Positions 21,027-39,256 of a stretch of 42,766 nt of DNA are shown here, piece by piece. The stretch comes from an uncultured Eudoraea sp. GTDB lineage: Bacteria; Bacteroidota; Bacteroidia; Flavobacteriales; Flavobacteriaceae. Position 1 is the first letter of the stretch, and every line of letters starts with the position of its first letter. The DNA lies in assembly GCF_947258525.1 (NCBI RefSeq), contig NZ_CAMYIP010000152.1:36183-78948 (forward strand), in the 5' to 3' direction. The notes beneath the pieces are model-generated. The model made no database searches and was not told where the DNA came from. It saw only the letters and a list, made by a program, of their open reading frames with translations. The translations under genes were made by a program, and so were the position numbers.

Positions 21027-21030
21027 CATT

Positions 21031-21348
21031 AAACAGGTCACCTTATCGCGCTCGCATTTTATGTGGGTGAGGAAAGTCCGGACACCATAGTGCAGCATAG
21101 CGGGTAACCCCCGTCTATTCCCCCATGTGGGGAAGAAGGACAAGTGCAACAGAAAGGAAGTACAGGTAATGCTGTAGTGAAATCAGGTAAACTCTATGCG
21201 GTGAAACGCCATGTATATCAGCGTCTGAGAGCGGCACGTTCAAGCTGAAGGGTAGGCGGTTAGAACTTTTGGGTAACCACAGGTCCAGATAAATGATAAG
21301 GGGGGTCTCTTTGAGGCTTTACAGAATCCGGCTTACGACCTGCTTTTA
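21031..21348 (+). ncRNA. rnpB: RNase P RNA, bacterial class A
   Basis: Catalytic RNA of RNase P, which makes tRNA 5' ends. The universal 5' core GAGGAAAGTCCGGAC is at 21069-21083 and its 3' P4 partner ACAGAATCCGGCTTA at 21321-21335. The AGATAAATGATAAG segment near 21287 is also typical. P1 is formed by CAGGTC (21034-21039) and GACCTG (21337-21342), which sets both ends to within a few bases. Length of about 318 is slightly shorter than in E. coli. A terminator follows immediately. Confidence 0.93.
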
Positions 21349-21349
21349 G

Positions 21350-21406
21350 AAAAAATCCTTTATTTTTTACGATTTATTTTAAATCTTAGGAGTAAGGGAT
21401 TTTTTT
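21350..21406 (+). terminator. terminator after rnpB
   Basis: AAAAAATCC (21350-21358) pairs with GGATTTTTT (21397-21405), and the T-run continues to 21406. A small GATTT/AAATC hairpin lies in the loop. It also stands at the 3' end of rsmD, which converges from the other strand. Confidence 0.65.
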
Positions 21407-31492: not shown

Positions 31493-32578
31493 TTAAGATT
31501 TATAAAATGGTAGTTTTACAACTTTTGCCTTTACTGTATTTTTACGTATTTGAATAAGAATCTCACTGCCCGGATCGGAGAATGTAGATTCTACATATCC
31601 CAAGCCAATACCTTTGTTCAAAGAAGGTGACATTGTTCCGGAGGTGACATAGCCAATTTTATTTCCTGTTCCATCTACTATTTCATAATCCTGTCTGGGA
31701 ATACCACGTTCCTGCAATTCAAAGGCAATTAATTTTTTCTTTAATGGTTGCTCCTTTTCTTTTGCCAGAGCATCACTGTTCACAAAGTCTTTGCTAAACT
31801 TTGTAATCCAACCCAGCCCTGCTTCTAAAGGAGAAGTTTCATCATTAATATCATTACCATAAAGGCAATAGCCCATCTCTAGTCTTAGCGTATCCCTAGC
31901 AGCCAAACCAATTGGCTTAATTCCATAAGCCGCGCCTGCTTCCAGAACACTATCCCAAATTTGTTTTGCTTCTTCATTTTTACAGTAAATTTCAAAACCT
32001 CCTGAACCTGTATAGCCTGTCGCCGAAATGATAACATGTTCTATCCCGGCGAAATCGCCAACTACAAAATTATAGAACTTAATAGCGGAAAGATCTACGG
32101 AGGTTAAAGACTGCATGGACTTTACCGCCTTAGGACCCTGAATAGCCAATAAAGAGTAGTTTTCTGATATATTCCTGAGTTGAGCACCTATAGACTCATT
32201 ATACCTGGAAATATGATCCCAATCTTTTTGAATATTTGAGGCGTTCACCACAAGGAGGTAAACTTCTTCTTTTACCCTGTAAACAATAAGATCATCCACA
32301 ATACCACCAGATTCATTTGGAAAGTAGCTGTATTGCGCCTTTCCAACCGCTAGTTTTGAAGCATCATTTGATGTGACTTTTTGGATAAGCGCTAAAGCGT
32401 TGGGTCCTTCCACTAAGAATTCTCCCATATGAGAAACATCAAAGACGCCCACCCCTTTTCTTACAGTTTCATGTTCAACATTAACACCTTCATAAGATAC
32501 TGGCATTAAATATCCTGCAAAAGGAACCATTTTTGCTCCAAGAGCTTCGTGAGTTTTAGTTAAGGCCGTATTCTTCAT
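31493..32578 (-). CDS. gcvT: glycine cleavage system T protein (aminomethyltransferase)
   Basis: Transfers the aminomethyl group from the H protein to tetrahydrofolate in glycine cleavage. 361 residues, normal length. Motifs: [17 protein letters not shown] (about 45-61), ILVNASN-type region ([10 protein letters not shown]), [11 protein letters not shown], and [21 protein letters not shown], which carries the folate-binding residues. gcvH and gcvP are elsewhere. The promoter at 32600-32630 suggests its own transcript. Confidence 0.96.
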
Positions 32579-32672: not shown

Positions 32673-33968
32673 CTATTTTTTTAGCAAATAACTTTTAAGT
32701 TCATCGTACGTGTCAATCTTGAAAGAAACTTTATCTTTTTCCAATACACTTTGAATCTGGGAAGGAATAGGCAATTTCAATTTTAGAGTTTCTTCAACAA
32801 CGTCTAAAAATTTAACAGGGTGCGCAGTTTCTAAAAACACGCCTAAGGTATTAGATTTATCTTTTTGGTATTCTTTCAGACCTAAATATCCAACCGCTCC
32901 ATGAGGATCAGCTATGTAGTTAGATGAATTATAAATTTTAAGGATTGCGCGTTTTGTTTCCTTATCTGTAAAGGAATAGGAGGACAAGTTATTCTTTAAT
33001 TCTTCGAAATTATTTTTATAAAGATTCCTTATTCTAATAAAATTACTGGGGTCTCCTACATCCATAGCATTAGAAATAGTAGATTTTGAAGTTTTGGGAG
33101 TATATTCTTGTGTATGCATAAAACGAGGTACAGTATCATTTACATTTGTTGCTGCAATAAAATGTGCAACCGGCATGCCTAGTTTTTGTGCAACCATCCC
33201 TGCGCAGATATTTCCAAAATTACCGCTAGGAACAGAGAACACAATAGGCTGTTTCCTGCTTTTAAGTTTTTTATAAGTAAATAGAAAATAAAACATTTGT
33301 GGCAACCACCTGGCCACGTTTATTGAATTTGCGGATGTTAATTTTATTTCTGATTTCAGGTCCGAATCCAAAAATGCAGTTTTAACCATATTCTGGCAAT
33401 CGTCAAAATTCCCGTTAACCTCAAGGGCCGTTATGTTTTGTCCTAATGTTGTTAACTGACGTTCCTGTATATCACTGACTTTTCCGCTTGGATATAATAT
33501 AACCACATTAACACCCTTTACCCCTAGAAAACCATTAGCCACTGCACCACCGGTGTCTCCAGAAGTAGCTACCAGCACTGTCACCTCACTATTTTGACCT
33601 TCTGAGAAATAACCAAGGCAATGCGCCATAAATCTGGCTCCTACATCTTTAAATGCAAGGGTAGGTCCATGAAAAAGTTCTAAAGTTGCTACGTTTTTTT
33701 CCAATTCTACAACGGGAAAGGGAAAATCTAACACACTATGTATAATCTCTTTTAATATATTTTCCGGAATGCTATCACTTACAAATTGTTTTATTGCCTC
33801 AAAGGCAATTTCATGATCCGTAAGATCTTCAATATTTTCAAAAAAAGATGCAGGCAGCGGGTTTATTTCCCGTGGAAAGTATAAACCTCTGTCGGGGGCT
33901 ATGCCGTTAATCACAGCATCTTTAAACGATACTTCCGCAGCTTTTTTATTTAGACTATAAAATTTCAT
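32673..33968 (-). CDS. thrC: threonine synthase
   Basis: PLP enzyme converting O-phosphohomoserine to threonine. The 431 residues have the PLP lysine in TLAFKDVGARFMAH (about residue 108), the VLVATSGDTGGAVANGF phosphate loop, and ARWLPQMFYF and VPSGNFGNICAG typical of the family. It follows thrB after 30 bases, as third gene of thrABC. The 94 bases between its stop and gcvT hold the gcvT promoter but no clear terminator. Confidence 0.96.
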   Translation of the reverse strand: MKFYSLNKKAAEVSFKDAVINGIAPDRGLYFPREINPLPASFFENIEDLTDHEIAFEAIKQFVSDSIPENILKEIIHSVLDFPFPVVELEKNVATLELFHGPTLAFKDVGARFMAHCLGYFSEGQNSEVTVLVATSGDTGGAVANGFLGVKGVNVVILYPSGKVSDIQERQLTTLGQNITALEVNGNFDDCQNMVKTAFLDSDLKSEIKLTSANSINVARWLPQMFYFLFTYKKLKSRKQPIVFSVPSGNFGNICAGMVAQKLGMPVAHFIAATNVNDTVPRFMHTQEYTPKTSKSTISNAMDVGDPSNFIRIRNLYKNNFEELKNNLSSYSFTDKETKRAILKIYNSSNYIADPHGAVGYLGLKEYQKDKSNTLGVFLETAHPVKFLDVVEETLKLKLPIPSQIQSVLEKDKVSFKIDTYDELKSYLLKK

Positions 33969-33998: not shown

Positions 33999-34919
33999 TC
34001 ATATTTTATGCATTCCTTTCGTATTTATTTTTGAAACATATACATCATAATCCACACCAATATTGACGTATACACTGCTCATAGCTTCTGCTACTTTTTC
34101 GGCAGTTGCCTTTCCTTTACTCAAGGCAAAAATAGAAGGCCCCGATCCGGAAATTCCGGTTCCCAAAGCCCCTGCTTTCATGGTTTCTGATTTTACATCA
34201 CTAAATCCGGGTATAAGCATGGATCGGATAGGTTCTATGATATGGTCTACTAAAGACCTGCCAATCAGGTCGTAGTCTTCGAGGAAAAGCCCTGATATAA
34301 GTCCTCCAACATTTCCCCATTGTTTTATTCCATCTTTTAAGGAAATTGATGTTTTAAGAATTTTTCTCGAATCTGATGTCTTTACTTCAATCTGAGGGTG
34401 GATCACCGTAGCAAACAATTCAGGGGGTGTATTTATTTTGATAATATCTAAGGGTTCATAACTACGCACCAGCGTAAATCCACCGTATAGAGCGGGTGCT
34501 ACATTATCTGCGTGGGCTACGCCGCTGGCTAATGCCTCTCCGAGCATGGCAAACTTTACCAGTTCAATTGGTGTAAATGGCCTATCCAGAAGTTCATTCA
34601 TAGCCCATACAGCACCGGCAGCACTTGCAGCGCTGCTGCCAATTCCACTTCCGGCTTTTATCTTTTTATGAATTTCAATCTCAAAGCCACCGGTATAATT
34701 GCTTTCTTTTAAAAAGGCCAATCCTGCTACGCCAGCTACATTATCTAATGTTGCCAGGGGTAGTGATTGTCCTGTTATTTTAGAGATCCTGATACCAGGT
34801 TCTTTTGCCTTTTGCACGATCATTTCATCGCCTATTGCCTCCAGGGCTAAACCAAGGACATCAAATCCACAGGAGATATTTGCTATTGTAGCCGGGCAAA
34901 AGACCTTAATTCTATTCAT
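33999..34919 (-). CDS. thrB: homoserine kinase
   Basis: GHMP-family kinase making O-phosphohomoserine from homoserine and ATP. 306 residues, with PATIANISCGFDVLGLALE at the start, the ATP loop KAGSGIGSSAASAAGAVWA (about 91-109), and the GTGISGSGPSIFAL C-terminal motif. It is four bases after thrA, which is typical for coupled translation within thrABC. Confidence 0.96.
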   Translation of the reverse strand: MNRIKVFCPATIANISCGFDVLGLALEAIGDEMIVQKAKEPGIRISKITGQSLPLATLDNVAGVAGLAFLKESNYTGGFEIEIHKKIKAGSGIGSSAASAAGAVWAMNELLDRPFTPIELVKFAMLGEALASGVAHADNVAPALYGGFTLVRSYEPLDIIKINTPPELFATVIHPQIEVKTSDSRKILKTSISLKDGIKQWGNVGGLISGLFLEDYDLIGRSLVDHIIEPIRSMLIPGFSDVKSETMKAGALGTGISGSGPSIFALSKGKATAEKVAEAMSSVYVNIGVDYDVYVSKINTKGMHKI

Positions 34920-34923
34920 TTAA

Positions 34924-37368
34924 TTAAAAATTTCCTATTCTGATTATATCTGCAAAAATTCCGGATGCTGTAACATCTGCCCCGGCCCCGGCGCCCTTGA
35001 TAATCAATGGTTGGCTAGGATATCTTTCAGTAAAGAAAAGTACAATATTATCACTTCCTTCTAAATTATAAAAATCATGACCCTTAGGGATGTGCTCTAG
35101 TCCAACACTCGCTTTTCCATTTGCATATTCTGCAACATATTTTAGCTTGCTTTCAACCGCCGCCGCCTTTGCATAAAGTTCCTGAAAGGATTTTTCATGG
35201 GTGATAAGAGAAGCATAAAAGTCTTCATTATTGTTGGTCGCCAAACTTTCTTCCGGCAAAAATGATTTGTTCTCTATTTCCTTTATATCCAGTTTATAGC
35301 CACTTTCTCTTGCCAAAATTAAAATCTTTCTCATTACATCAACCCCACTGAGATCTATTTTTGGATCCGGTTCGGTATATCCCTCTTCCTGCGCCCTTTT
35401 AACAACATCATGAAAAGTGGTGGTATCGTCAAAATTATTAAAAACAAAATTCAGACTTCCCGATAGTACAGCTTGTATTTTGTTGATTTTATCTCCGGAG
35501 GCTATCAAATGCTTTAGAGTGTCTATTATGGGCAATCCCGCACCCACATTTGTCTCAAATAGGAATGGTGAATTGTATTCTCTTGAAAGCTCTTTAAGAT
35601 CCCTGTATTTTTCATAGTCCGAAGAACAGGCAATTTTATTGCAGGTAACTACTGAAATACTTCGTTTTAAATAATCAGAATAAGTATCGGCTACAATTTC
35701 GCTGGCGGTATTATCTACAAAAATGCTATTGCGATAGTTGTATTTTAAGACGTTTTCATAAAACCTGGTCTTATCCGCTTTTTCTCCTTTTTCCAACAAC
35801 TCTTCCCAACGTTCCAATGGTATCCCATCCTCATCAAAAACCATTGTTCTCGAATTAGATAATCCAATGACCCGCGGATTTAGTTTAAGGTTCTTTTTAA
35901 GATATTTTTTCTGATTTTGGATTTGCTTAATAAACCTGGAACCCACATTACCCACGCCCATTACGTAGAGGTTTAATTGCTTAATGTTTTCCTCAAAGAA
36001 CTCTTCATGTAAGGTATTAAGGGCTTTTTTTATATCATCTTTTCTAATAACGGCCGAAATATTCCTTTCAGAAGCCCCTTGGGCAATGGCTCTGATATTT
36101 ACGTTATTCTTGCCTAATCCACTGAACATCTTTCCGCTTAGGCCTTGGTGACTTTTCATATTGTCTCCCACCAGAGCAATAATGGCGAGTTCAGTTTCTA
36201 CTATTACCGGCTTAATTTTTTGTGTAGCTATTTCATATTCAAAAGCTGTATTCACCAATGATTCTGCAATTACTGCATCATTATCAGAAATTCCAACGCA
36301 AATTGAATGTTCTGAGGATGCCTGTGTTATAAGTACAACACTAATACCGGCCTGAGAAAGCACCTCAAAAAATCGTTTTGAGATACCCGGTATTCCAATC
36401 ATACCCGGGCCTTCCAGCGAAAGGAGGGTAATATTCTCTACATTACTGATACCCCGAACAGACTTACCCAGGGCATTTTGGTTTTTGGCTATTAAAGTAC
36501 CCTGCTCGTCCGGTGCAAAAGTATTTTTAATGAGGATAGGTATATTTTTTGACAGCACAGGTTGAATGGTGGGGGGATACAAAACTTTGGCTCCAAAATG
36601 AGATAATTCCATTGCCTCTTCATAAGAGATCTGCGGAATTGCTTTAGCCTGTTTAACTATTCTGGGATTAGCAGTATACATTCCACTAACATCTGTCCAT
36701 ATTTGTAGTTCCTCCGCCTCTAATGCACCAGCTACTATTGCCGCTGTATAATCAGAACCACCTCTTCCTAAGGTTGTGGAATTACCTTTAGCTGATGAAG
36801 ATATAAATCCTGGAATGACAGTTATGTTGCTTTTAGAATTTGAAAAGTAAGTTTTACATAAACCATTTGTGCTATCAAAATCTACTCCGGCCATGCCATA
36901 CGCATCATCAGTTTTAATTAACTCTCGACTATCTTTAAACGCAGAGTTCATACCTTCTGATATGAAGAATTCACTAATAATAAAAGACGACAAAAGTTCA
37001 CCAAAACTTACTATCTTATCTGTTAACTGCGGGGTCTTTTCAGCAATTAGAAATGCACCCTCGGCAAGGGTATCCAAAGTGTTTAATTCACTTTTTACTT
37101 TACTTAAAATGGCACTTTGTAATTGAATTGGAATAAGTTCTTTAATGGTCTTAATATGCCGGGCCTCTATTTCGCGGAGACAATCTTTATAGCTCTCATC
37201 CTGCTTCGATGCCAAATCAACCGTTTTTAAGAGTAAATCAGTAATTCCCCCAAGAGCTGATACGACAACAACCATCTTATTTCCATCTAAATTTTTGACG
37301 ATATTCTGAACCTGCTTAATGTGTGCTGCATTGGCTACTGAAGTACCTCCAAACTTTAAAATCTTCAT
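34924..37368 (-). CDS. thrA: bifunctional aspartokinase / homoserine dehydrogenase
   Basis: An 814-residue fusion. The aspartokinase part starts with KILKFGGTSVANAAHIKQV and has the substrate-binding TLGRGGSDYTAAI (about 202-214). Two ACT-like regulatory repeats follow (ITLLSLEGPGMIG..., LAIIALVGDNM...), normally the site of threonine feedback. The homoserine dehydrogenase part has NAD-binding LYVMGVGNVGSRFIKQI at about 465 and catalytic-region ETNVGAGLPIIDTLKHL. The gene starts 78 bases after the end of a Thr-rich leader ORF and heads thrABC. Confidence 0.97.
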   Translation of the reverse strand: MKILKFGGTSVANAAHIKQVQNIVKNLDGNKMVVVVSALGGITDLLLKTVDLASKQDESYKDCLREIEARHIKTIKELIPIQLQSAILSKVKSELNTLDTLAEGAFLIAEKTPQLTDKIVSFGELLSSFIISEFFISEGMNSAFKDSRELIKTDDAYGMAGVDFDSTNGLCKTYFSNSKSNITVIPGFISSSAKGNSTTLGRGGSDYTAAIVAGALEAEELQIWTDVSGMYTANPRIVKQAKAIPQISYEEAMELSHFGAKVLYPPTIQPVLSKNIPILIKNTFAPDEQGTLIAKNQNALGKSVRGISNVENITLLSLEGPGMIGIPGISKRFFEVLSQAGISVVLITQASSEHSICVGISDNDAVIAESLVNTAFEYEIATQKIKPVIVETELAIIALVGDNMKSHQGLSGKMFSGLGKNNVNIRAIAQGASERNISAVIRKDDIKKALNTLHEEFFEENIKQLNLYVMGVGNVGSRFIKQIQNQKKYLKKNLKLNPRVIGLSNSRTMVFDEDGIPLERWEELLEKGEKADKTRFYENVLKYNYRNSIFVDNTASEIVADTYSDYLKRSISVVTCNKIACSSDYEKYRDLKELSREYNSPFLFETNVGAGLPIIDTLKHLIASGDKINKIQAVLSGSLNFVFNNFDDTTTFHDVVKRAQEEGYTEPDPKIDLSGVDVMRKILILARESGYKLDIKEIENKSFLPEESLATNNNEDFYASLITHEKSFQELYAKAAAVESKLKYVAEYANGKASVGLEHIPKGHDFYNLEGSDNIVLFFTERYPSQPLIIKGAGAGADVTASGIFADIIRIGNF

Positions 37369-37446
37369 TATTCTATCTTGTTAATTATGTAATTGATACA
37401 GGTGTTGTTACTGAATATATATGAATACGGACGTATATGTAGAATC

Positions 37447-37542
37447 TTACCCCTTAGGGGTAGTAGTGGTAGATGTAACAGCAAAATGGCGCTGGTTAGG
37501 TTGGGAAGGAGCCCATTTGTTTATGTCCGATATGCTTTTCAT
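37447..37542 (-). CDS. thrL: threonine operon leader peptide
   Basis: A 31-codon ORF: MKSISDINKWAPSQPNQR, then HFAVTSTTTTPKG and a TAA. Residues 23 and 25-28 are Thr, giving five Thr codons in six. It begins about 13 bases after the predicted start of a consensus promoter and ends 78 bases before thrA. The last codons (CCT AAG GGG TAA) lie in a 6-bp hairpin. The composition and position match leader peptides of amino-acid attenuators such as thrL of enterobacteria, though the sequence is unrelated. I see no intrinsic terminator with a T-run between it and thrA. Confidence 0.85.
   Translation of the reverse strand: MKSISDINKWAPSQPNQRHFAVTSTTTTPKG
37448..37462 (-). promoter_or_regulatory. hairpin at the leader-peptide stop codon
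   Basis: On the minus strand TACCCC and GGGGTA form a 6-bp stem with loop TAA. It covers leader codons 27-31 and the stop. A ribosome halted at Thr codons 25-28 would occupy its 5' arm. A second pairing, ATTCTA just downstream with TAGAAT just before the thrA ATG, is possible but weak. Confidence 0.55.
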
Positions 37543-37559
37543 AATGCCTATGATAACAA

Positions 37560-37580
37560 TTCAAAAGTATGACTTTTGAA
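37560..37580. repeat. 8-bp palindrome overlapping the thr promoter
   Basis: TTCAAAAG (37560-37567) and CTTTTGAA (37573-37580) are perfect reverse complements around a 5-base centre. The left arm contains part of the -7 box of the thr promoter and the right arm lies in the spacer. It is placed where a repressor could block the polymerase. Confidence 0.5.
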
Positions 37581-37592
37581 CCCCTTATCAAA
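37562..37592 (-). promoter_or_regulatory. promoter of the thrL-thrA-thrB-thrC operon
   Basis: On the minus strand TTTG (37589-37592), exactly 19 bases, and TACTTTTG (37562-37569) match the Bacteroidota consensus without error. Initiation about seven bases downstream (near 37555) would place the leader-peptide ATG 13 bases into the transcript. The remaining gap to nnr (37593-37774) has no recognisable plus-strand promoter. Confidence 0.85.
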
Positions 37593-37774
37593 TAATTCAT
37601 GCTATTTTTACGAAGTCATCAAACTTTTTCAAATATTTTTACAAAAAATAGTTCTTTTAGGTAGATTGATTAGTATACCGTAGAATTCATAATTACCAAC
37701 ATAATTAAAATGGCTATTATAAATAGGGTTATGACTAAATAGGGATAATCAAAACTCTAAGCTTAAATGGGGAA

Positions 37775-39256
37775 ATGAAGATATTCACAGCCAAACAGAT
37801 TTACGCAGCTGACCAATTTACATTGGCAGAGCAGAAAATTACTAGTGATGAACTTATGGAGAGGGCGTCTGTTCAACTTTTCAACTGGCTTCATCACAGG
37901 CTGCAAGGGGCACAGGTAAAAATTAAGTTGTTTTGTGGGATTGGAAATAATGGTGGGGATGGATTGGCTCTGGCCAGACACTTAATGGAGCATGGCTATA
38001 ATATAGAAGTAATTGTTGTAAACTATAGCGAAAAGAGGTCTGCTGATTTCCTGGTTAATTTGAAACGATTAAAAGATCGTAAGATTTGGCCATATTTTAT
38101 GAACCCGGATACTGAACTTCCTTCGTTAAGTTCAGAAGATATAATTATTGATGCCCTTTTTGGGATTGGTTTAAACAGATCGCCAGACCAATGGGTTGCA
38201 CAGATTATACATCATCTCAATAAATCTGGTGCTTTTGTAGTTTCGGTTGATGTGCCATCGGGTTTGTTTTTAGATCAGGCTGTTAATAATTTAGAATCGG
38301 TCGTAAAAGCTAATTATGTTCTTAGTTTCCAGTTTCCAAAACTTATTTTTTTCTTGCCGGAAACAGGGGTATTCTCTAATCAATGGCAAATTTTGAATAT
38401 TGGTTTGTCCCAAAAATATACTGAACAAACTCATGCCAGCTTCGAACTTATTGGCAAAAATGAAGTTTTGAAATATTACATTCCGAGAGAAAAATTTTCG
38501 CACAAAGGCACTTACGGCCATGCGTTGATTCTTGGTGGCAGCTATGGAAAAATTGGAGCTGTTTCTCTTGCTTCACGGGCCTGTATTACCACCGGTAGTG
38601 GATTGGTTTCGGCTTATGTGCCTCAATGTGGGTATATACCATTGCAGAGTTCATTGCCTGAAATTATGGTTATTACGGATAAGGGCGAAAAAGAAATTAT
38701 GAATATTTCTTTGAACATGGAGCCCAATGTAATAGGGTTGGGAATTGGAATGGGAACCGGTAAAAACGGAATTAATATTCTTGCCCAAAAAAAATCCCTT
38801 TTAAAAAGACTTCAGCCAAAAACGGTACTTACACCACATCCGGGGGAATTGAAGCGTTTGTTGGGTGCCTGGGAGAATGATTTTGACAAGCTAAAAAAAG
38901 CAAAGGAATTTTCTAAGAAATATGATTGCATCCTTGTACTTAAAGAAGCCCACACAATTGTGGTCTATGATGAACAGGGATATGTTAATACAACGGGAAA
39001 CCCCGGTATGGCTACTGCTGGAAGCGGGGATGTGCTGACCGGTATGATAACTTCATTAATTGCGCAGAAATATGAACCTTTAAAAGCGGCTATTTTTGGA
39101 GTATACCTTCATGGCAGGGCTGCAGATTTAGCAATTGAAAACCTGGGATACCAAGCGCTTACAGCTACCGCTATAATTAATGGAATTGGCCCGGCTTACA
39201 TTGATTTGTTTAATGTTCCTCCTGTGGACACGGAAAATCAAACTAAAGAAGACTAA
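37775..39256 (+). CDS. nnr: bifunctional NAD(P)H-hydrate epimerase/dehydratase
   Basis: A 493-residue fusion that repairs damaged NAD(P)H. The N-terminal YjeF epimerase domain shows FTAKQIYAADQFT, the GIGNNGGDGLALARHL motif (about 52-67), and SVDVPSGLFLD. The C-terminal dehydratase domain (from about 230) shows KGTYGHALILGGSYGKIGA, VLTPHPGELKRLLG and the catalytic-region TGNPGMATAGSGDVLTGM. Domain order is normal. It is divergent from thrA, and its ATG at 37775 gives the standard start MKIFTAKQI. Confidence 0.95.
   Translation: MKIFTAKQIYAADQFTLAEQKITSDELMERASVQLFNWLHHRLQGAQVKIKLFCGIGNNGGDGLALARHLMEHGYNIEVIVVNYSEKRSADFLVNLKRLKDRKIWPYFMNPDTELPSLSSEDIIIDALFGIGLNRSPDQWVAQIIHHLNKSGAFVVSVDVPSGLFLDQAVNNLESVVKANYVLSFQFPKLIFFLPETGVFSNQWQILNIGLSQKYTEQTHASFELIGKNEVLKYYIPREKFSHKGTYGHALILGGSYGKIGAVSLASRACITTGSGLVSAYVPQCGYIPLQSSLPEIMVITDKGEKEIMNISLNMEPNVIGLGIGMGTGKNGINILAQKKSLLKRLQPKTVLTPHPGELKRLLGAWENDFDKLKKAKEFSKKYDCILVLKEAHTIVVYDEQGYVNTTGNPGMATAGSGDVLTGMITSLIAQKYEPLKAAIFGVYLHGRAADLAIENLGYQALTATAIINGIGPAYIDLFNVPPVDTENQTKED

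Follow-up and report, generated by a model that had tools for sequence, protein, structure and literature searches.

A putative ribosome-mediated threonine attenuator, apparently without an intrinsic terminator, upstream of thrABC in Eudoraea and its relatives

Introduction

How might a ribosome stalled on a leader peptide signal to RNA polymerase when no intrinsic terminator appears to follow the leader? Leader-peptide attenuation as described in textbooks rests on terminator hairpins with U-tracts, and to our knowledge the role of Rho in the leaders of Bacteroidota has been little described. This question is raised by a stretch of 42,766 nucleotides from an uncultured Eudoraea sp. of the family Flavobacteriaceae (hereafter, the window), in which a short open reading frame (ORF) rich in threonine codons lies upstream of thrABC. 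An earlier note, made from the letters of the window, had proposed that thrABC is controlled here by ribosome stalling at these codons. In this study, we analyzed the promoter, the leader ORF, the RNA structures and the composition of the region before thrA, both in the window and in the corresponding regions of related genomes.

The thrABC locus and the sequences compared

The genes are arranged in the order thrA-thrB-thrC on the minus strand, with 174 nt between the leader ATG and thrA; the features discussed below are listed in Table 1. The thrA product of the window was 93% identical over the full-length protein to that of Eudoraea adriatica (L029), and 97% identical to a partial gene (residues 166-814) from a Eudoraea metagenome assembly (L034), which places the window within Eudoraea or next to it. 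Some neighboring features were also observed. A gene for the glycine cleavage T-protein (31493-32578) lies downstream of thrC on the same strand, which ties threonine to glycine metabolism, and an RNase P RNA of bacterial class A is found at 21030-21350. A second aspartate kinase-homoserine dehydrogenase is encoded elsewhere in the same genome (L013:511-3915), fused behind an alpha/beta hydrolase domain that we take to resemble homoserine O-acetyltransferase.

Three sets of upstream regions were compared with the window. The named near relatives comprised 80 loci, of which L034 and L039 were dropped as having too short upstream DNA, leaving 78; counts out of 79 refer to the window plus these 78 loci. 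For the family set, 130 genomes were searched, 97 had thrA and 80 upstream regions were used. For the phylum set, 198 genomes were searched, 140 had thrA, and 60 regions were hand-picked for diversity, seven of them from the same family. By a script rule for the stop-codon hairpin (P2), which overlooks some true copies (such as L142, L144, L154 and L158), 139 regions carried P2, and 102 of these formed the non-redundant set.

Table 1. Positions of the leader, its predicted RNA elements and the thrABC genes in the window
Feature	Position	Strand	Basis
Sigma-A promoter TTG-N19-TACTTTTG (-33 and -7 boxes)	37562..37591	-	19-base spacing in 74/79 regions
Leader ORF, 31 codons, MKSISDINKWAPSQPNQRHFAVTSTTTTPKG	37447..37542	-	Translation; conserved in relatives
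P0 5' strand CGGAC, possible long-range helix	37525..37529	-	Predicted, near clade
P1 hairpin, AUGGG..CCCAU type; window itself only GGG..CCC	37501..37516	-	Sister-clade helix covaries about there
Small second hairpin CAGC..GCUG within the ORF	37479..37494	-	Predicted fold
Control codons Thr Ser Thr Thr Thr Thr, residues 23-28	37459..37476	-	Leader ORF translation
P2, UACCCC-UAA-GGGGUA	37448..37462	-	Conserved hairpin; covariation in sister clade
P2-to-thrA gap, 79 nt, candidate Rho-binding region	37369..37447	-	Composition (C 0.177, G 0.089)
Conserved motif CUACAUAUACGUCC after P2	37429..37442	-	Near-clade conservation; YATAT count
P0 3' strand GUCCG, possible long-range helix	37428..37432	-	Predicted, near clade
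thrA, bifunctional aspartate kinase / homoserine dehydrogenase I	34924..37368	-	NCBIfam equivalog match
thrB, homoserine kinase	33999..34919	-	NCBIfam equivalog match
thrC, threonine synthase	32673..33968	-	NCBIfam equivalog match

Promoter

The consensus promoter with 19-base spacing claimed in the earlier note was found in the window: TTG at 37589-37591 is followed by exactly 19 bases and then by TACTTTTG at 37562-37569, and the same spacing was present in 74 of the 79 upstream regions. TACTTTTG is a perfect match to TAnnTTTG, the -7 box of flavobacteria, for which positions -12 to -5 are given in the promoter description of PMC9723704. This placement predicts that transcription starts near 37557, with about 15 bases left to the ATG; the ORF thus lies downstream of the predicted start as had been noted, although the distance noted had been about 13 bases. 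A sigma-70 scan was uninformative on this promoter type, as it used the E. coli consensus.

A perfect 9-3-9 inverted repeat, TTCAAAAGTCATACTTTTGAA (37560-37580), overlaps the -7 box and is one of two such perfect repeats in the whole window. CAAAAGTAC-TACTTTTG, or a form near to it, was retained in the 14 relatives compared. The repeat may be a regulator site, or it may represent a symmetric promoter that works in two directions, for thrA on one side and for the divergent NAD(P)HX repair gene on the other.

Leader ORF and its conservation

Translation of the minus strand confirmed an ORF of 31 codons, MKSISDINKWAPSQPNQRHFAVTSTTTTPKG, and the five Thr codons in six (residues 23 and 25-28) that had been read from it. 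When the same 300 bases of the window were shuffled 2000 times with dinucleotides preserved, an equal or better Thr/Ile-run ORF was obtained in 0.7% of the shuffles. Using a score of at least 4 per 8 residues, with Ile counted half, we found a Thr/Ile-run leader ORF in 65 of the 78 named near relatives (5.9% of shuffles) and in 25 of the 60 regions across the phylum (3.0% of shuffles). Further family regions had it in 51 of 80 cases (3.8% of shuffles), a count that is lowered by the omission of 17 genomes (the window's own, 15 others of at least 70% identity and one with a partial gene), 14 of which, besides the window's own, match the covariance model described below. Thus, conservation of the ORF and its Thr codons, on which the earlier note had made its proposal depend, was observed in the named relatives and in the family and phylum sets. 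With a like threshold, runs in the 80 family regions were found for Thr (Ile counted half) in 64%, for Leu in 36% and for Ser in 11%; shuffles are a better control than such runs of other residues.

These codons are concentrated next to P2. Among the 102 non-redundant sequences, the combined share of Thr and Ile was 93% at the codon in which P2 begins and 88, 62, 60, 64, 59, 45, 36 and 36% in the eight codons before it, compared with mostly 16-30% further upstream; the shape of this profile counts for more than its level, because Thr/Ile codons were both part of the P2 rule, which required some of them, and the basis on which the frame was selected. Thr/Ile codons occupy about nine codons immediately ahead of P2.

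At E values up to 0.01, a covariance model of the leader region matched 69 of the 299 family genomes; it missed G002, a genome of the window's own genus, which counts against the reading proposed below. In the window's own genome it gave a single convincing match. L110 and L111, considered as further copies in this genome, were rejected, having E values above 1 and ORF lists with no convincing leader.

Departures from this layout were observed at a few loci. By eye, two Pricia loci (L068 and L095) keep the promoter and an altered hairpin, in L095 of the form ATCCC-CTT-GGGAT, but no longer have the Thr codons, as would be seen after loss of the sensor. The thrA genes of L204, L205, L208 and L242 have no leader and lie downstream of another ORF, whose end seems similar to the C-terminus of threonine deaminase; the regulation of thrA at these loci may pass to an ilv operon.

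The hairpin over the stop codon

The GC-rich hairpin of 6 bp that had been seen over the end of the ORF was recovered as TACCCC-TAA-GGGGTA, running from the last Thr codon into the stop codon. A CCCC-N(2-4)-GGGG hairpin was present in 75 of the 79 upstream regions, the window included, and the stop codon started within -10 to +12 of the P2 end in 100 of the 102 non-redundant sequences. The C-terminus of the leader is variable (PLG, PKG, PWG, LWG, LWGC, FGV, TP-stop or R-stop) where P2 is kept, and the ORF stops inside P2 in L031, L032, L151, L222 and L233. Since the end of the peptide varies and P2 stays, comparison of these sequences suggests that selection acts more strongly on the RNA hairpin than on the peptide.

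Outside the family, the script's rule identified P2 in 12 of the 53 phylum regions, and six loci of another class of the phylum were among those with P2 by this rule (L233, L235, L236 and L238-L240). In three loci from another family of the window's own class (L243-L245), inspection by eye showed a hairpin with its strands swapped (ACGGG-GTAA-CCCGT or ACGGG-GTGA-CCCGT), which follows TTTTG or TTITG in the peptide and still lies around the stop codon.

Switching by an alternative partner of P2, of the 2:3 / 3:4 type, was considered and rejected: no partner for either P2 arm, in the leader or in the gap, was better than in shuffles.

Other RNA structures in the leader

Further structure was found in the sister clade. 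In an alignment of 21 hand-chosen sequences (L165 left out), RNAalifold recovered three helices unaided: P1, which precedes the Thr codons, P2 and, on its downstream side, P3. Double changes were found at 15 of 21 pairs. Pairing reached 87.0% compared with 75.9% in shuffles, double changes 43 cells compared with 14.5, and the covariation score 0.332 compared with 0.149; each of five structure measures was reached by none of 500 shuffles. Sliding the partner by 1-3 columns reduced pairing to 36-52%. The four inner P2 pairs were invariant in this clade and hence uninformative on covariation. Across the 102 non-redundant sequences, local folding energies were below those of shuffled sequences around P1 (z -0.94, se 0.14) as well as P3 (z -1.25, se 0.15); in the outer windows, z was near zero.

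For the near clade (six sequences), P1, the second small hairpin, P2 and a CGGAC:GUCCG helix (P0) were predicted, with one pair double-changed, and P3 was not seen in these sequences, which include the window's own genus. When the whole leader was aligned in 74 rows, P2 was the sole helix recovered. Folded alone, the leader RNA of the window was not unusually stable (z -0.33), as 74 of 200 shuffles folded equally well.

Long-range pairing was weak. P0 pairing with own rather than swapped partners gave z -0.51 (se 0.15) in 45 near-clade sequences, about zero in the remaining 57 as judged from the means, and a mean of -0.24 over all 102. A slight excess over shuffles was found between leader positions -80 to -45 and gap positions +3 to +35 (z -0.38, se 0.11; 102 sequences), and a scan for leader-gap pairing was likewise weak, with a best t of -3.3 among 44 window pairs.

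The gap before thrA and the output of the leader

The earlier note had suggested Rho-dependent termination or an action on thrA translation as possible outputs; the composition of the gap supports the former, and the latter found no support in the folding results given below. RNA sites bound by Rho are described as G-depleted, C-rich and weakly structured in the account of Rho-dependent regulation in PMC5021804, and a C-rich, G-poor gap is what would be expected of such a site. Between P2 and thrA, the mean composition was C 0.199 and G 0.080, with C exceeding G in 98% of the 102 sequences; the named loci gave C 0.217 and G 0.083 (n=74). By comparison, the 75 nt ahead of the divergent gene at the same loci had C 0.145 and G 0.132 (n=76), although this control is the upstream region of one gene in related genomes and not a set of independent genes. 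In the named loci the C excess stops at the thrA start codon. At the other end the bias does not begin at P2, because C is already in excess of G over the final 60 nt of the leader (0.21-0.28 compared with 0.09-0.16), partly via the Thr codons. The gap of the window taken alone shows a modest bias (0.177/0.089); of 14 regions that lie ahead of other genes in the window, 2 reach a similar difference between C and G. Five thrA gaps of the terminator type, which have no P2 (L211, L215, L249, L251 and L258), showed no or little C bias once the stem was removed (C/G 0.055/0.236, 0.036/0.164, 0.115/0.090, 0.096/0.115 and 0.113/0.141). Rho is encoded in the window's own genome.

The most serious rival, or partner, to Rho is suggested by a motif at a near-fixed distance from P2. 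In 65 of the 102 sequences, a YATAT has its first base 8-13 nt beyond the last G of P2, compared with 4.1% in single-base shuffles, and CTACATATACGTC is invariant in the six near-clade sequences. A distance of about 10-12 nt is that expected between a hairpin and the pause it stabilizes. P2 could therefore be a hairpin-stabilized pause signal at which RNA polymerase would halt about 10-12 nt downstream, at YAUAU, unless a stalled ribosome kept P2 open, so that the pause rather than the C-rich gap would decide, with or without Rho. We regard this as unlikely, if the strongest of the alternatives: a pause by itself would not reduce expression, it leaves the excess of C over G along the gap unexplained, and 21 of the 102 sequences have no YATAT within 36 nt after P2.

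It is less probable still that the leader targets the decay of the mRNA or the translation of thrA, and not transcription. There is a partial precedent in speF, where orf34, with its Arg codons, is described as controlling decay by RNase G as well as the ribosome-binding site of speF, besides Rho (in the account of PMC6386406), and many relatives have P3 as a conserved hairpin in the stretch that separates leader and gene. On the other hand, the last part of the gap, folded on its own, was no more structured than shuffles (z 0.21 for +40 to +80 after P2, n=85; z 0.02 for +50 to +90, n=41), and control of translation by structure near the thrA start was accordingly not supported. The variable length of the gap (65-97 nt as the 10-90% range) also argues against coupling by reinitiation.

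Absence of a terminator for thr and its presence for his and phe

The earlier note had seen no T-run terminator before thrA, and a scan of both strands from 37200 to 37900 agreed, finding no terminator-like site. Among the 139 P2-bearing regions, only three (L047, L074 and L240) had such a site between P2 and thrA. A T-rich tail directly after P2 occurred in 30 of these regions compared with 34.5 expected, the window not being among them, and a P3-like stem, which the script found in 74 of the 102 non-redundant sequences, was followed in the next 8 bases by a mean of 2.91 T compared with 3.12 expected. From these observations, we consider with high confidence that the thr leader has no intrinsic terminator.

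Classical attenuators do occur in the same phylum and in the same genome. The five thrA leaders of the terminator type mentioned above carry Thr/Ile runs followed by strong terminators with long U-tracts, which is the classical layout. Within the genome of the window itself, an 11-bp terminator with a T tail follows both MRNKNTHHHLYTCAQAR, the leader of hisG (L281), and MTRNYSWNGTYFYFFFKRSTGLF, the leader that precedes the prephenate dehydratase gene (L284); his and phe thus have classical attenuators and thr does not, which bears out the earlier suggestion that the mechanism may differ from that of enterobacterial thrL. The upstream region of one of the two ilvD-type loci of this genome (L282), inspected by eye, had no clear leader.

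These classical layouts, together with the three regions that have a terminator-like site besides P2 and the 14 of 74 sequences with at least five T in 8 bases after the best P3-like stem, might suggest that an attenuator like enterobacterial thrL was missed by the scans. We consider this very improbable and rejected it, as the window has no such site, the sites are rare among P2-bearing regions, and T after P2 and after P3-like stems is at background. Finally, that the ORF arose by chance or has decayed, with no regulatory role, is hardly credible and already largely refuted: 20 of the 80 family regions have no leader or P2 by the script criteria and the two Pricia copies have no Thr codons, but some of the script-negative regions (L195, L206 and L217) look leader-like by eye, frame and codon type are conserved, and the conservation of promoter (74/79) and CCCC..GGGG hairpin (75/79) makes a chance origin untenable.

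Proposed mechanism

The features present are a promoter, an ORF, a Thr/Ile run set against P2, P2 on the stop codon, and a C-rich, G-poor gap with no U-tract. Judged on these features, the element is very probably a ribosome-mediated threonine attenuator, and the best reading is that it senses charged tRNA-Thr and, by its codons, also tRNA-Ile in many relatives. When threonine is scarce, the ribosome would stall on the Thr run, its leading edge would cover P2, and RNA polymerase would proceed into thrABC. With threonine in ample supply, the ribosome would arrive at the stop codon in P2 and leave, P2 would close, and the ribosome-free gap of 79 nt would allow Rho to load and end transcription. 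We slightly favor this reading as a whole, namely an attenuator that has no terminator, works through closure of P2 and most likely has Rho as its output.

The part played by Rho by itself appears evenly balanced from the sequence evidence. In plain Rho polarity, a stalled ribosome normally favors Rho, which is opposite in sign to the proposed mechanism, and the mechanism therefore needs masking of the gap. In the window's clade, the stall may free CGGACAUA, close to the start of the leader, for pairing with UAUACGUCCG downstream of P2; this would mask some of the gap, in the way that the Rho site of mgtL is masked by a stall. It is this problem of sign, together with the weak P0 pairing, that holds Rho at such a balance.

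Comparison with known systems

The leader resembles enterobacterial thrL in having a short ORF with Thr codons (in relatives also Ile codons) before thrABC, with stalling at cognate codons as the expected sensor. It differs from thrL in that no intrinsic terminator and no antiterminator partner were found and P2 lies on the stop codon right after the control codons. No Rfam family, including Thr_leader (RF00506), matched the leader region at gathering scores or at E values up to 5. The Bacteroid-trp motif, which precedes trp genes as an attenuator, belongs to a different operon. It is listed as RF01692 among cis-regulatory motifs for Bacteroidetes in the motif list of PMC2864571.

With the his and phe leaders of its own genome, the thr leader shares a short ORF in which cognate codons form a run (HHH and YFYFFF, before hisG and the prephenate dehydratase gene, respectively), but these two have strong U-tract terminators and the thr leader has none. 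Attenuators have been proposed in Flavobacterium psychrophilum, a member of the same family as the window: its transcriptome gave strong clues for leader-peptide attenuation before amino-acid operons, with conserved 5' elements named at pheA and hisG, and neither thrA nor threonine occurs in the main text of that paper, whose supplements might list thr (PMC9723704). For Bacteroides thetaiotaomicron, short ORFs in long 5' UTRs were described as reminiscent of such leaders, in remarks that mention neither threonine nor thrA (PMC7366714).

Precedents for Rho come from other leaders. In tna and mgtL, the stalled ribosome is described as protective, covering the Rho site or leading to its masking (Rho account of PMC5021804), and speF orf34 with its Arg codons is a leader that likewise involves Rho (speF account of PMC6386406). 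The thr leader is like Salmonella mgtL, speF orf34 and E. coli tnaC in that the position of a ribosome on a short ORF would decide termination, which in those systems is by Rho and here putatively so. In mgtL and speF, as in the thr leader, the codons used are those for an amino acid in short supply; mgtL and speF switch between alternative structures, whereas no clear alternative structure was found here. A title-level search of the open-access literature found no paper on a thr leader in Bacteroidota. Thus, attenuation of this kind is known, and the layout with a stop-codon hairpin and no terminator appears to be undescribed in the open-access literature searched.

Implications

We tentatively suggest, with slightly less than even confidence, that this leader belongs to a separate class of attenuators found in at least two classes of Bacteroidota. 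Control codons, P2, YAUAU at a near-fixed distance and the C-rich gap would form one unit, in which P2 would serve as a sensor of ribosome occupancy with neither terminator nor antiterminator, and transcription would end by Rho or by a P2-dependent pause after the ribosome leaves. One genome appears to combine classical attenuators for his and phe with a terminator-less design for thr that is common to many relatives. This offers a natural comparison for how a stalled ribosome signals in the absence of an intrinsic terminator, with a pointer to Rho, and gives the study of threonine synthesis in Flavobacteriaceae a concrete regulatory element that can be tested.
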